A stretch of 64,000 nt of DNA from Pirellulales bacterium (lineage in GTDB: Bacteria > Planctomycetota > Planctomycetia > Pirellulales > JANQPP01). A program made the translations under genes and the position numbers. The stretch is from contig JANQPP010000190.1 in assembly GCA_028289405.1 (NCBI GenBank), positions 20,937 through 84,936 of the forward strand, written 5' to 3'. Within the stretch, counting starts at the first letter, position 1, and each line of letters starts with the position of its first letter. Shown here piece by piece: positions 46,730 to 55,066 of this stretch. Below the pieces are notes generated by a model. The model saw nothing but the letters and a program-made list of their open reading frames with translations. It did no database searches and was not told where the DNA came from.

Positions 46730-48901
46730 TCAGTCGCTCCCTGGAGTCCAAATCGCCGCGGGCCGTCCGCTCTCGGCGCGTTCTTGGTCAGGAGTCCACA
46801 CACGGTTTTCTTGTGGCGCGGCGGCTGACGGAGCTTGCTCGGACATTTCGGCCGTCACGCCTTCCATGCTTCCGTCGGGCTGCATGCGAATCATGCCCAT
46901 CTTGACGAGTAAGTCCTGGAGCATGCCCATGGCTTCGGTGTCATGTTGATGGTTTTCGACGAACTCTTTGATCAACCGTTGGAAGTTTTCCGCGTCTCCC
47001 GATTCCGCGCGACGCCGCATTTCATGAAGAGAAATGCTCGCATGCAGCCGTGAGCCACGTTCCACGCCAGCCTTGGCCTTCGCGAGCCATTCCAATGCCG
47101 GCTCCAGTTCTGACTCCGACTCCGCCAAGGAAAGATGCACCAACGGCATGATTCCCGGCCGTGTTTCCAATTGAGGGCGCCGTATGATTTCCCCCGCCAC
47201 TCGGCGGGATAACGCATGAAAGGCGACGGACATGGCGCTCTCGAACAAGCTCGTCAATTCGTCGTCCGACAATTTGCCTACGTCCACGCGCAGTAAGGAC
47301 GGCAATGGAACTGGAGGGACTTTGCCATCCTCCGGAGCGTTATTGGGAGCTTCCGGCCAGTTATGTGCACGGCGGATTTCATCGAAGTCAATTTGCGCGG
47401 CATGCTGGGGCGGCAATGCCAATTCGATCAGCGTCAGCAGGGCTTCGAGGGCACGTTGCGCGAAAGGATCCGAGCTTTGCGCGGCCTGGTCCGGGGTGCG
47501 ATGCCCCAAAATCCGGAAACGGACCCCAGGCAACACGTCGTGCAGATTCGTCTTTAAATCCTCTACCGCGAGGGCCAGGCGAGCTTCCCAGTCCGCATGA
47601 GGAGGAAATTCCCGGAACGTGTTGAGCAAGAGGGACAAGGGAGAGAGTTTTCCCGCGATTTCTTCCTGAGTCTCCGGGGCCGCACCTTCCGCCACGATGT
47701 GCGAGAGCAATTCCTCCAAGAATTGCTTCGCCCGGTCGGCACGATCACGCCATTTCACCGCGTGGACAACCAAGCGCGGTTCGCGGTCGGTTTGCCGCCC
47801 GTACAGAAAAACCGTGGCCACATGCTGCGGCACCGTCTCCGCATTAACCGGTTCCTCTTCACGAGGAATGGGTCGATCGAATAGTTCGAAGGCCAAGCGC
47901 GGCCGGGGTTCCGTGTCCTCCTCTTCATCAGGAGAGGGCAATTCCATGCGCCGTATCCGACGTTCGGCGGCCAGCAGTTCCTCGCAGCGGTCCATATCCG
48001 AAAATTCGGACGTGAGTTTTACGGCCTCGACTCCGTTAACGGTGTCTTCTTCATCGAGCGCCTCGGCCCGCAGTAGCGCCGTTACCACATCTTCACTGGA
48101 GTTGCTCTTGCGGGCAAATTCGCGCCAGGCCGCGGCGGCTTTTTTTTCTTCCGCGATCCACTCACGCGCGATCGCCAGTCCGCGCCACGGATCGGCGACT
48201 TGCGGCCACTTCGCGGAAAGCTCCGTGAACTGTTCGCAGGCGGAATTCCATCGAAGTTGCCGCGCTGCCTGCGAGGCAGCCTCGAAGGCTTCACGATAGG
48301 GCGCATCCTCCGGGCAGGCACCAATCTGTGGCTCCTCCTTCAACGCCAAGGGCACCGTCGAGGAGCCAAGCAATTCCATGAGAATCGATAACTCGTACGA
48401 AGATTCTTCGCCGCGCAAGGACTGCGCGAGGACGAGGAAATGCATGGCCGGAGCAAGCCTGCCATGCTCGGCGAGGCGAATGCCCAAAGGAGCGATGGCC
48501 GGCACGAGCATTCCGATTTGCTCACCCTCGGCATGCTCCGCCGCGGAGTAGAATTCGAGGATCGCTTGCGCCGGATCGTCGAGTAGCGCGCTCGTGATGG
48601 CGAGGTTCGTCCTGGCCAGGGGGTTCTCGGGAAACTGGTCCAGAAAAGCGTTGCTGGTCTGGCGAGCCGCTTCCCATTCACGAAGTTGTATTTCGGATCG
48701 AGTTTTGAACGCGAACAGGCAAGGACGGTCTGGATGCCGTCCCAGCAGATGCTCACACCGGGAAAGACACGCTGATGGCTGGTCCGATTGCTCGAGCCGT
48801 GCCAGCTTTTCCAGCTCACCTAACAAGTCGTGCCGACAAGGGCAAAACTTGACTTTGCGGCCAGTACCTCCCGGGCACGGCCCGTAAGCGTCCAATGACA
48901 T
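46730..48901 (-). CDS. SEC-C-motif protein with TPR-like repeats
   Basis: 723 aa from the ATG behind AAAGGAG; the track ORF begins 97 codons earlier at poor starts. The N-terminus YGPCPGGTGRKVKFCPC is a SEC-C-type zinc motif. Residues about 20-370 look like helical repeat (TPR-like) units such as LARTNLAITSALLDDPAQAILEFYSAAEHA. Several low-complexity Glu/Pro segments follow (SPDEEEDTEPRPRLAF). The C-terminus continues helical. Role unknown; SEC-C motifs bind zinc and often mediate protein contact. Confidence 0.78.
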   Translation of the reverse strand: MSLDAYGPCPGGTGRKVKFCPCRHDLLGELEKLARLEQSDQPSACLSRCEHLLGRHPDRPCLFAFKTRSEIQLREWEAARQTSNAFLDQFPENPLARTNLAITSALLDDPAQAILEFYSAAEHAEGEQIGMLVPAIAPLGIRLAEHGRLAPAMHFLVLAQSLRGEESSYELSILMELLGSSTVPLALKEEPQIGACPEDAPYREAFEAASQAARQLRWNSACEQFTELSAKWPQVADPWRGLAIAREWIAEEKKAAAAWREFARKSNSSEDVVTALLRAEALDEEDTVNGVEAVKLTSEFSDMDRCEELLAAERRIRRMELPSPDEEEDTEPRPRLAFELFDRPIPREEEPVNAETVPQHVATVFLYGRQTDREPRLVVHAVKWRDRADRAKQFLEELLSHIVAEGAAPETQEEIAGKLSPLSLLLNTFREFPPHADWEARLALAVEDLKTNLHDVLPGVRFRILGHRTPDQAAQSSDPFAQRALEALLTLIELALPPQHAAQIDFDEIRRAHNWPEAPNNAPEDGKVPPVPLPSLLRVDVGKLSDDELTSLFESAMSVAFHALSRRVAGEIIRRPQLETRPGIMPLVHLSLAESESELEPALEWLAKAKAGVERGSRLHASISLHEMRRRAESGDAENFQRLIKEFVENHQHDTEAMGMLQDLLVKMGMIRMQPDGSMEGVTAEMSEQAPSAAAPQENRVWTPDQERAESGRPAAIWTPGSD

Positions 48902-49348
48902 CAGCGGCACTCCTTTTGAACTTCGACCACCTAACTGCCAATCTCCGCCGAATGGCGCGACGCGCAGCGTTGATCGTATCACAGCCGCACGGTACCCGCG
49001 AGCCTGGCTCGTCCATGGTCGCGGAGATTGGTGACCTGGAGGTCGAAAGAATAATGCCCGGAGCCTTTGATTGGATTGTCTATCGGCGTAACAACGCGGA
49101 GCGACGCCAGAGCACGTGAACACTCGGGCTTGTCCACACGCACAAACAAAAACGGGGTGAGATTTCGCCAGAAATCCCACCCCGCGTATCAATCACTTGG
49201 GCATGGCCAGGCCAATCACTTGGTCCCAGCCAGCTCATGCGACAAAGGAGCCCAGGAATCAAACCTCGGTGATCGATGCAACGATCGTCAAATCACGACC
49301 GGAAGTTGCAACACTTCGCGGAGGCCTGCGGGCTTGGATCACGAACTC
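48902..49348. other. Intergenic region with terminator
   Basis: About 450 bases between the metal-binding protein gene and the SEC-C gene, both on the minus strand. It contains the strong hairpin at 49153-49184. A plus-strand ORF of 74 codons antisense to the SEC-C upstream region is not supported. Confidence 0.45.
49143..49184 (-). terminator. Rho-independent terminator (minus strand)
   Basis: Arms CGGGGTG and CACCCCG plus inner GATTTC/GAAATC, one mismatch, four-base loop. On the minus strand it is followed by TTTTTGTTTG. It ends the transcript of the CPxSG/CCxxC protein gene, 165 bases upstream on that strand. Confidence 0.85.
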
Positions 49349-51001: not shown

Positions 51002-51829
51002 TCAAAGGTTACGCGTGATATGGTCTTGCGGCAAAGTTCGCAGACGGAGGTTTCGCCAACGACATCGAGTGGTCGTTTCTACATCTTCGACCGCTTGGAT
51101 TTCCAAGGCAATTCTTCCGCCCTGGCCGGTAGCCCGCGAAACGTGAAGGGGATCGTACCTTATATCTTGGAAGCTGGCTCCATCAAAATCGCTCACCAAG
51201 AGACCATTGATCCGTGTGGAAATTCGCACGGGATCACCGCTGACGCGGATGTTGATCTCATTCCACGCGTCTCGCTTCCACGCATTCAGCCACGTCTCGG
51301 GCGTGATCAAGGGCTCGGGACCCATCATCGCGGACCGGGGCCGGGCGATCAGGTCCAAGAGTTCTCCGCCTGGTGCATAATCTCCCAAGATCTCCCAGGA
51401 CCTATCGGTGAATCCGCCCAACCCGATTCCATGGACATATCCCACTCCGCCTCGGTCCCGATAGTCGACCGCGACACGAAAACCTTGATGTTCATCGTTG
51501 AAACGCACGTAGATCCCCGCGCAGATCCCCCAATCGGGCTGGACTTCGATAGCCAATTCGAAATCGCGGTAGGACTGTTCTGAAACCAATAAAGATCGCG
51601 AAATCGTCCCCTGAACGGGGGCCATGGAGGTCAAGACCCCACGCTCCATGTTCCATGTGTTTCGCGCCTCCTCGGATTCCGTGTCAGGCAGCACGTGCCA
51701 GCAGGTGAGCGAATCCGATTTAAACAAGGCTGACGAGGGCTTCGCGGATTGAGCCACGGCCATCCGGGGCAGGACCGAGATTAGAGCAATCAACCCAATC
51801 GCGACGAAACGCCAAGACCGGAATTTCAA
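51002..51829 (-). CDS. Exported DUF1080-like (3-keto-disaccharide hydrolase family) protein
   Basis: 275 aa. Preferred start is a TTG five bases after GGAGG, giving the signal peptide KFRSWRFVAIGLIALISVLPRMAVAQ. Mature part is a concanavalin-like beta-sandwich with the pattern of DUF1080: SLTCWHVLPD, NTWNMERGVLTS, YRDFELAIEVQPDWGICAGIYVRFN, WNEINIRVSGDPVRISTRINGLLVSDFD and GRIALEIQA. Such proteins act on carbohydrates outside the cell and are numerous in planctomycetes (general knowledge). Exact substrate unknown. Confidence 0.8.
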   Translation of the reverse strand: MKFRSWRFVAIGLIALISVLPRMAVAQSAKPSSALFKSDSLTCWHVLPDTESEEARNTWNMERGVLTSMAPVQGTISRSLLVSEQSYRDFELAIEVQPDWGICAGIYVRFNDEHQGFRVAVDYRDRGGVGYVHGIGLGGFTDRSWEILGDYAPGGELLDLIARPRSAMMGPEPLITPETWLNAWKRDAWNEINIRVSGDPVRISTRINGLLVSDFDGASFQDIRYDPLHVSRATGQGGRIALEIQAVEDVETTTRCRWRNLRLRTLPQDHITRNL

Positions 51830-51909
51830 AGGCTCCTCCACGCGATGCAAATGAAGCCAAGCAATTCGGACGCACGATTTGCGACACCTGCTCGGTGCAA
51901 GTTGGCCGC

Positions 51910-52554
51910 CTACTCGCCCGTACCCGACGGACGTTTCGTGTTTCCAGAGCGTGTTTTCGCCGGAGCAGCCTTTTTCGCCTTCCCGGTCGCGCGCCGCACG
52001 GTCGTGGTCGTCGACTCTCCGGAAGGGGACGATTTTTTGCGTTGGGGTTTCGCGGATTTTTTTCTGCTTGCCGGCTGTTTCTTATTGGTTTGTTTGCCGC
52101 GTTTGGCCGTGGAGGATTTTTTACGCGTGGACTTCTTCTTCGCCGCCCGCTTCCGCGACTTCTTTGCCGCCGGCTTCTGTTTTTCGGCGGAGGACTTCGC
52201 GGACTTTTTTCCAGGCCGTTTCTTCGGCAGCTTTTTTCTTGAAGCCTTTTTCGAAACGCTCTTTTTCTTGACCGCCTTCTTTGGCGATTTCTTAGCCCCT
52301 TTGCCGCTGGGAGCCAGTTTGCGGCGTTCCTCAGGAGTCAGTTCATCTTCCAGCGTGGTGACTCCCGCCAACAGAGCCACGCGGACCAACTCCGTCGCCG
52401 TGGTAATTTCAGCGCTACGCATCGCGCTGGTGCGTTGATTATCCACGGTGCTCACCGCCTTTTGGAGCACCTGGGCCACTTCCTTGGTGGACAGTCCGAG
52501 CGAAATCAGGCGAACGACCTGCCGCTCCGCTGGGGTAAATGCCGGTATTCTCAA
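51910..52554 (-). CDS. LuxR-type HTH protein with histone-H1-like lysine-rich tail
   Basis: 214 aa. Residues 1-70 form a LuxR/FixJ-type helix-turn-helix: FTPAERQVVRLISLGLSTKE, VAQVLQKAVSTVDNQRTSAM and a following helix TATELVRVALLAG. From about residue 85 to the end the protein is a Lys/Ser/Ala/Pro/Arg tail with SPKK and KKAxK-type repeats, like histone H1 C-termini and AlgP/Hc1-type bacterial tails. TTG is the only start upstream of the HTH because a stop codon lies five codons before it; AGGCGAG lies just upstream. DNA-binding is expected from both parts. Confidence 0.88.
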   Translation of the reverse strand: MRIPAFTPAERQVVRLISLGLSTKEVAQVLQKAVSTVDNQRTSAMRSAEITTATELVRVALLAGVTTLEDELTPEERRKLAPSGKGAKKSPKKAVKKKSVSKKASRKKLPKKRPGKKSAKSSAEKQKPAAKKSRKRAAKKKSTRKKSSTAKRGKQTNKKQPASRKKSAKPQRKKSSPSGESTTTTVRRATGKAKKAAPAKTRSGNTKRPSGTGE

Positions 52555-52788
52555 GACGTCACTCGCCTAGAGAGAGTAGGGTTGCCGCCTCCTGGACATT
52601 CCTCATTTCTAATGCAGACGCGGCATCCTGTAAATCATCTGCCCCAAGAAACATAGGAAAGATTGGTCCCAAACCTCGCCCTAGCGTTTTGGACCGCATC
52701 CTGAGGCCGAGAGCGCGGCCAAGACAAAGACTATTGGCCACTGCGAGATGCGGTGGGCTCCCCGCGTCCTGGGGCGGTTTATGGTGTA

Positions 52789-54480
52789 TCAATTCTGCGC
52801 CTTGGCCTGCGCCGTGGTCCCGCTGGTCCGGCGATAAATCTCCCTGAGGGCAGATTGTATGCAGCCATCCTGATCCATGCGCACCGGGCTCACCGCCGTG
52901 AAAGAATCCGTGGCTGGTTTGTGAGCGGTGCGCACCACCAGGTGCGGATCAACCCCTTGTTTGCTGATCCGCTGGCCCGAGGGTGAATAGAAAAGAGCGG
53001 TGGTCAAACGCAATCCCACGCCGGATCGTTCGAGGGGAAAGATTCCCTGCACTGAGCCCTTACCGTAGCTGCGGCTACCCACCAAGATTCCCCGCCCGTG
53101 ATCGCGGATCGCGGCCGCGAAGATTTCGCTGGCGCTGGCGCTGTCGTGATCGATCAAGACCACGATCGGGACCCGCCATGTTCCTGGCCGACGGGCGGTG
53201 TAATTGAAGTCTTCCTGTCGGCTGCGGCCTTGGGTGGAAACCAGTACGCCGTTTTGCACGAATTTATCCGCCAATTCCACGGCCGCGGTGAGCAGACCTC
53301 CAGGATTTCCGCGCAGATCCATGATCAGCCACTTCATGCCTTGGTCATGAAGTTTCCACAGCACGGAGTTGACTTCGCGGCTGGTCGTTTTCTGGAAACC
53401 GCTGAGTTTGAAATATGCGATTCCTTGCTGCGGATCGAGGATTTTGGCATCTTCCACGCTGGGTACTTCCACATGCTTCCGCACGACCCGCACGGTGCGT
53501 GGTCGAGAACCGGGAGTGGCGACCACCAGCCGCGCGGTACTGCCCTCGTTTCCTTGCAGAAGGTTCGCTCCTTCGTCCACGTCCAATCCGGCCGTCACGC
53601 GACCGTTGACCGAGAGAATATGGTCTCCCGCACGCAACCCCGCTTGGCTGGCCGGGCTGGCTGGAATCACTTTGACGACCAACAGGCCTTCTTGCACTGC
53701 TTTGAGCTCGATTCCTAATCCCACGAAATTGCCTTCGATCTGGGAATAGATTTCATCGAGTTGAGCCTCGGTCAGGAAACCCGAGTAGTCGTCCAGACCT
53801 CCGACGGCACCGCACAAGAATTCGAACACGGAGGCCGATGGAGGAATGCCCGCCTGTCGGGCCAATTCCGCGGCACGTGAGACGTATTGCACCGCATCAT
53901 AACGATCCCGCACCGGCATCTGCTGGGACAAGTCTCGGAACGCCTGTTCCAACCGGGACAAAGCAGCCAGGTTGACTTCAGGATACATGTCCCGGAACTG
54001 CTCATCTCGCGCGGCCACGATCAGGCTTTCAGCCCCTCGCCGGGCAAGGTGGTCCCAGCGAGGATCCTCGACGTGATGCGCGTCAACTTTCAGCAGCGCG
54101 TCGGAATAAACCCGGAGCGCCTCATCTCTGGAAACCGTCCTCACGACTTGGCGGAAAGAAGCGTCTCCATACCGCCGGGCGACGTCGACGTGCATTTTTG
54201 CCAGTTCGACCCGCTGTTCGAGCCGCTCATCTCCCGGGTAACGACGAAGCGCGTCCTCGTAGTAGGAGAGCGCGTCGTACCAGAGATGACTGGCCTCCAA
54301 TTCATGACCACGACTGAGGATGCCGTCCAGCGCCAAAACCGGTTCGGCTGGCGTCGGCCGCAGAATCGTGACCGTGGAGGCCGGCTGTCCGTGGCCGGGG
54401 GTCGCTCCCCAGCCCAGCGCGAGGATGAGGGTCAGAAATGAAAGGGAAAAGCGCAAGGGGATCATAAAACTACGTCGCAT
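52789..54480 (-). CDS. Exported carboxy-terminal processing protease (S41 family) with PDZ domain
   Basis: 563 aa from ATG 54480 (track ORF is 70 codons longer). Signal peptide MIPLRFSLSFLTLILALGWG. A TPR-like helical region (about 40-190) precedes the protease. The PDZ domain lies in VGLGIELKAVQEGLLVVKVIPASPASQAGLRAGDHILSVNG. S41 core: MKWLIMDLRGNPGGLL, then catalytic Ser in DHDSASASEIFAAAIRDHG and Lys in SRSYGKGSVQ about 23 residues later. It cleaves exported proteins near their C-termini. Confidence 0.93.
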   Translation of the reverse strand: MRRSFMIPLRFSLSFLTLILALGWGATPGHGQPASTVTILRPTPAEPVLALDGILSRGHELEASHLWYDALSYYEDALRRYPGDERLEQRVELAKMHVDVARRYGDASFRQVVRTVSRDEALRVYSDALLKVDAHHVEDPRWDHLARRGAESLIVAARDEQFRDMYPEVNLAALSRLEQAFRDLSQQMPVRDRYDAVQYVSRAAELARQAGIPPSASVFEFLCGAVGGLDDYSGFLTEAQLDEIYSQIEGNFVGLGIELKAVQEGLLVVKVIPASPASQAGLRAGDHILSVNGRVTAGLDVDEGANLLQGNEGSTARLVVATPGSRPRTVRVVRKHVEVPSVEDAKILDPQQGIAYFKLSGFQKTTSREVNSVLWKLHDQGMKWLIMDLRGNPGGLLTAAVELADKFVQNGVLVSTQGRSRQEDFNYTARRPGTWRVPIVVLIDHDSASASEIFAAAIRDHGRGILVGSRSYGKGSVQGIFPLERSGVGLRLTTALFYSPSGQRISKQGVDPHLVVRTAHKPATDSFTAVSPVRMDQDGCIQSALREIYRRTSGTTAQAKAQN

Positions 54481-55066
54481 TGATGGCCTACAACAGGTAG
54501 GAGCTTGCCCAAGCCGTAGCCCATCCTCTGGCTTTCGCACACAATCCCTTGCCGCCCCAGTCACGAATTGGGGCACTGTGCGCGCTCGGACGTCAGTGTG
54601 TATCCAAACGGTTTGACGCGCCGACGGGCGGAAAATGCCTCCGTGCCCTCGGCCTTGCACCAATATACGTCGCGGTTTGGCCACGGTCAAAAAAAGTTGG
54701 GGAGCGGTAGATGATTTTCACTAACCGGAAAGCCGTATATCCGCTAGCCGCCGTGCCATCTGTATCAGCCGCATCTGATCGATGGGATCAGGCTGACCAC
54801 GTGTCTCGTCGCCGCGTGCAAACAGCCCGCATAACACGACAAAGTTACCGTGGTCGCTGTAACTTGTGGTGAAACCTTACCGCGGCAAACTCCAGCTCGC
54901 CACCAATTTGCAAGCACCGGTACGGTAAGGGGAAGTGCGCGCCGCGAGAAAAAAGAATCTCTTGATGAGCTGGGCCGCGCTGACGGCGTCATGGATCCTA
55001 CATGCTGTACAACGCGCACCCTTGGTGGACAAGGACTAAACCGCAAACGCAGGTCTCGCGCGTTGA
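54481..55066. other. Intergenic
   Basis: About 590 bases between the S41 protease start and the LOG protein stop, both on the minus strand. Small ORFs on both strands look like noise; no tRNA or terminator was found. The protease promoter must lie here. Confidence 0.45.

Follow-up and report, generated by a model that had tools for sequence, protein, structure and literature searches.

Histone H1-like, lysine-rich extensions on bacterial DNA-binding proteins raise the question of whether their carriers organize chromatin or regulate transcription. We address this question for a protein that joins a helix-turn-helix (HTH) domain of the GerE/LuxR type to a polycationic tail and is encoded within a 64,000-nucleotide stretch of a Pirellulales genome (hereafter, the window). 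The source genome (6.4 Mb in 219 contigs) is the sole representative of its family among the genomes compared.

The gene and its flanks

The 214-codon gene, referred to here as the HTH-tail gene, occupies positions 51910-52554 on the minus strand and starts with TTG at 52554. The features considered below are the following, in the direction of transcription.

52789-54690, minus strand: S41 protease with PDZ, flanking the HTH-tail gene
52555..52788, minus strand: 234-bp intergenic leader before the TTG (from the sequence)
52315..52554, minus strand: head, residues 1-80, GerE/LuxR-type HTH (Pfam GerE, homologues, AlphaFold2, Foldseek)
51910..52314, minus strand: tail, residues 81-214 plus stop, Lys/Ser/Ala/Arg-rich polycation (composition, codon-position GC, pLDDT)
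51002-51850, minus strand: 3-keto-disaccharide-hydrolase-type protein, flanking the HTH-tail gene

An in-frame TAG lies four codons 5' of the TTG, which is the only ATG, GTG or TTG codon that keeps the HTH intact; the in-frame GTG and ATG located inside the recognition helix would truncate the domain. The TTG start appears credible because it aligns with the start of the homologues, which has the form MxxLTPxER. The coordinates, strand, start codon and fusion described in an earlier note on this DNA, as well as its argument that the fusion is independent of start choice, are thus borne out by the sequence. The plus-strand antisense ORF 51845-52438 was rejected as the true gene, because dozens of homologues match the head encoded on the minus strand.

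The leader contains a weak AGG ribosome-binding-like site, and no promoter-like site was found in it. A possible short upstream ORF (window positions 52559-52654, minus strand, MFLGADDLQDAASALEMRNVQEAATLLSLGE) ends 4 nt before the TTG and might be translationally coupled to the HTH-tail gene; its peptide has no homologue in the loci compared. The upstream 31-aa peptide was discounted as a missing N-terminus of the HTH-tail protein, being encoded in a separate frame and having no homologues.

A diverged GerE-type head

The head matches the Pfam GerE profile (PF00196) over residues 6-60 with 25.2 bits (cut-off 23.5; E 1.3e-5), and the same profile is matched by all 19 members of the head-family alignment (A3). 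Dozens of homologues are ~34-51% identical to the head, and its best solved relatives are EsrB, FixJ, EL222 and the SsrB/RcsB DNA-binding domains. AlphaFold2, supplied with 18 relatives, models residues 1-80 at pLDDT ~89-98 and predicts helices at 8-18, 23-30, 34-47 (recognition), 53-63 (dimer) and 74-80, so that the predicted head has the four-helix GerE fold. The closest solved fold in Foldseek is Bacillus subtilis GerE (1fse; TM 0.90 to the target, rmsd 1.1 A); since most of the query is disordered tail, the E-value is modest (1.8e-3).

Despite this assignment, several features of the family have been lost. Four near-invariant positions are altered in the head (L6 to F, C21 to L, H40 to Q and K41 to R), and the LG found in the family after the recognition helix is likewise missing. 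The DNA preference of the head has probably changed relative to that of the family, since positions 40 and 41 sit in the predicted recognition helix.

In a phylogenetic tree of 69 rows and 76 columns, a small number of columns that calls for caution, the head groups with G008/L079 (support 99/87), and together they nest in a group from one other family (f9) whose members likewise lack the DGWN end typical of most relatives (100/96). The placement is unsure because the head's own branch measures 2.1 changes per site. Taken with the loss of conserved residues, this branch length suggests that sequence recognition by the head could be altered or lost. Its closest neighbour in the tree, L079 (a member of another family of the order), has a short basic stub at its C-terminus, KDRKGQAKRSRRPRQPR, which would fit an origin of the tail by extension of a basic end.

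The same divergence bears on a rather improbable explanation, namely, that the fusion is a nearly neutral or degenerating lineage-specific change, in which a short GerE gene was deprived of its usual C-terminus and gained low-complexity basic sequence of little function while the head drifts. The very long branch and the lost head residues would be expected under such drift, as would a unique tail without motif enrichment; yet the GerE profile still recognizes the head, which is modelled with the confidence given above, and the reading frame of the tail has been kept open for 134 codons, with 53 Lys/Arg against only 3 acidic residues and a neighbour-like GC3.

A polycationic tail of H1-like composition

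The 134-residue tail consists largely of Lys (41), Ser (20), Ala (18), Arg (12), Thr (11) and Pro (10), with 3 Glu and no Asp, and carries a net charge of +50. It is predicted to be disordered, as judged from pLDDT values of 51-58 and no predicted secondary structure. The tail is coding in its annotated frame, considering that GC by codon position (0.43/0.59/0.65) peaks at position 3, as in most neighbouring genes. A frameshift or wrong-frame artefact was accordingly rejected: besides the fit of codon-position GC, the homologous C-terminal motif does not occur in the other two frames.

The earlier note described an H1-like tail bearing SPKK. The basic composition is real and one SPKK is present, but this number is at chance level (0.37 on average in composition-preserving shuffles, 32% of which contain at least one), and KKxxK is not significantly enriched either (6 versus 3.5 expected in such shuffles, p 0.12). 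Given that no H1 motif exceeds its frequency in shuffles, the tail is H1-like in composition only. Apart from a weak 14-bp DNA array, we found no tandem repeats in the tail and, in particular, no tandem KPAA. It is a long, disordered, Lys/Ala/Pro/Ser-rich basic domain of the kind found in AlgP, PhaF and H1, with a single chance-level SPKK in place of repeated SPKK or KPAA. The possibility that the tail is a domain common to other proteins of the same genome was dismissed (best match E 0.08, in a search weakened by the low-complexity bias filter).

The tail is confined to one genome

Searching 397 genomes of the same order with the head yielded matches in 47 genomes, corresponding to ~70 proteins, whose frames were read. 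Nearly all of these are stand-alone GerE proteins of ~85-110 aa, with a head homologous to that of the HTH-tail protein and no N-terminal receiver or sensor domain. Most end in a conserved short KRKSGRKNDGWN motif, within a fuller C-terminal end of the form LTxxEKRKSGRKNDGWN or a near variant; the motif is absent from the HTH-tail protein and also from its relatives in the nearest family (f9). The earlier note had named absence of the tail from close relatives as evidence against its proposal, and for the relatives compared this is what we observed: a Lys-rich tail is found in none of the ~70 relatives (47 genomes), which belong to other taxonomic families of the order than the HTH-tail genome.

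A full-length query against the same 397 genomes recovered no tailed relative, and a tail-only query against 147 related genomes gave no similar tail among the capped set of candidates scored, although low-complexity corrections weaken this search. Class- and phylum-level genome samples added no tailed protein, so that the search for further HTH-plus-tail proteins that the earlier note envisaged produced no second case; the phylum-level matches are mostly ordinary proteins of receiver-GerE size that end right after the HTH. A second genome collection contributed 20 clear planctomycete-type relatives (several from the same genomes as in the 397-genome search), one of which is labelled Opitutaceae, and these are tailless wherever read. 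The named relatives of the head come from Pirellulales and other Planctomycetota MAGs. The full protein had no match in a genome-contig collection, whereas the head alignment retrieved from viral contigs one typical short protein ending in DGWN. Among the genomes compared, the tail is confined to one.

These searches bring out small stand-alone GerE proteins as a family that shares a conserved GRKNDGWN end and is widespread in planctomycetes, and for which a limited literature search found no description. In Pirellulales, members with the strongly conserved (E)KRKSGRKNDGWN end are widespread (e.g., L083:3989-4249; loci L078-L097 and L003-L072), and a genome can contain as many as five paralogues (G222).

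Regulator or architectural protein

The distribution of the tail argues against its proposed link to the condensed nucleoids of planctomycetes: present in one genome only, it cannot explain condensation that planctomycetes share. A tomography study of these nucleoids implicates DNA density and cations and, among candidate proteins, mentions HU homologues only (PMC3440768). It is unlikely that the protein is chiefly nucleoid-architectural, with the tail bridging or condensing DNA genome-wide and the head only guiding or clustering it. The composition of the tail does resemble that of H1 and AlgP tails, the nucleoids of planctomycetes are condensed and histone searches there gave only divergent HU (PMC3440768), and the relaxed conservation seen in the recognition helix would be in keeping with a protein that binds DNA largely without specificity; however, condensation is described across planctomycetes, SPKK occurs at the level of chance, and both HU genes of the genome lack a Lys tail. 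Of the earlier proposal of a sequence-recognizing head that delivers a compacting tail, the fusion of an HTH of the sequence-recognizing type to a disordered polycationic tail stands, but nothing specifically supports chromatin compaction. A further reading, a lineage-specific architectural transcription factor whose GerE head has relaxed recognition and whose disordered +50 tail condenses or bridges DNA around its sites (site-nucleated compaction), seems quite doubtful.

We favour, with a probability of roughly 0.55, a small GerE-type regulator, comparable with CarD and AlgP, whose lineage gained a 134-residue polycationic tail that raises non-specific DNA affinity. The GerE assignment and fold, the large stand-alone GerE family of the same start and extent, the coding, disordered and strongly basic tail, and the basic stub of L079 speak for this reading; the loss of C21, H40, K41 and LG, the branch of 2.1 changes per site and the lack of conserved neighbours hinting at a target speak against it. 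In such a regulator, the GerE head would dimerize via helix 53-63 and insert helix 34-47 into the major groove, while the tail (~+50 per chain) would lie along the adjacent phosphate backbone without sequence preference, raising affinity, residence time and search efficiency. The tail could also let the dimer touch a second DNA segment, but the protein would mainly serve to control transcription locally, at putative target genes.

Comparison with known systems

Like B. subtilis GerE and the stand-alone proteins of Pirellulales, the HTH-tail protein has a single ~75-residue GerE HTH and no receiver or ligand-binding domain; with the Pirellulales family it further shares the start and the extra LTxxE helix. 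Both lack the 134-residue basic tail, and the Pirellulales proteins keep H40/K41, LG and the short C-terminal KRKSGRKNDGWN motif that the HTH-tail protein has lost. Lys-rich tails are also known from actinobacteria, where HupS carries one. Actinobacterial TopA has lysine repeats (PMC7398561). HupS and TopA resemble the HTH-tail protein in having such a tail on a DNA-binding protein or enzyme, but their heads are unrelated.

Myxococcus xanthus CarD combines a structured N-terminal domain with a ~140-residue intrinsically disordered basic DNA-binding C-terminal domain (PMC4374960). It is thus a bacterial regulator that, like the HTH-tail protein, has a structured head and a long disordered basic tail; however, its head is an RNA-polymerase-binding domain rather than an HTH, and the AT-hooks and acidic segment of its tail have no counterpart in the HTH-tail protein. 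In Myxococcus, the C-terminal domain of CarD can be substituted by other disordered domains of basic character. Pseudomonas AlgP (AlgR3) and PhaF carry a disordered Lys/Ala/Pro-rich H1-like C-terminal domain on a small protein, and AlgP indicates that a bacterial H1-like tail may serve granule positioning instead (PMC9239181). Their tails differ in consisting of KPAA tandem repeats, and the N-terminal domain of AlgP is alpha-helical and not described as GerE. By analogy, the tail of the HTH-tail protein might bind another polyanion (RNA, the ribosome, polyphosphate or a storage granule) and tether it to the DNA-bound head, but we regard this as very unlikely, since the tail has no KPAA repeats such as those in AlgP and PhaF and none of the immediately neighbouring genes is a granule gene.

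Overall, the HTH-tail protein is an unusual local variant of a small DNA-binding protein common in its relatives and provides no evidence for a chromatin system. Should the tail act in the proposed way, the protein would be an independent example from bacteria in which an H1-like disordered tail upgrades a short DNA-binding domain, and the tailless relatives would be natural controls for it.

Other observations on the locus and genome

No conserved neighbours are shared with the f9 relatives in the immediate flanks. Downstream of the tailless GerE gene of one related family lies a conserved lipoprotein-like gene whose product is rich in Ser, Pro and Gly and has the motif GC..GP(M/V)DLVYGPQRI (L080:4271-5219, L081:4259-5138 and L078:1374-2067). 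Origin of the tail by fusion of a downstream neighbour was rejected, as the f9 loci continue with an unrelated Ser/Pro-rich lipoprotein-like gene that is not Lys-rich. About 3 kb from the HTH-tail gene, the window encodes a large SEC-C/TPR-like protein without a Pfam match (46730-49192), a 25% identical homologue of which adjoins the HTH gene in L085 (1594-3687), in one genome only.

Neither of the two HU-family genes of the source genome has a long Lys tail. One (L138:1501-1983) encodes a ~70-residue acidic, Pro/Ser-rich C-terminal extension, opposite in charge to the tail of the HTH protein, and the product of the other begins with a short MAKAAAAKK stretch.
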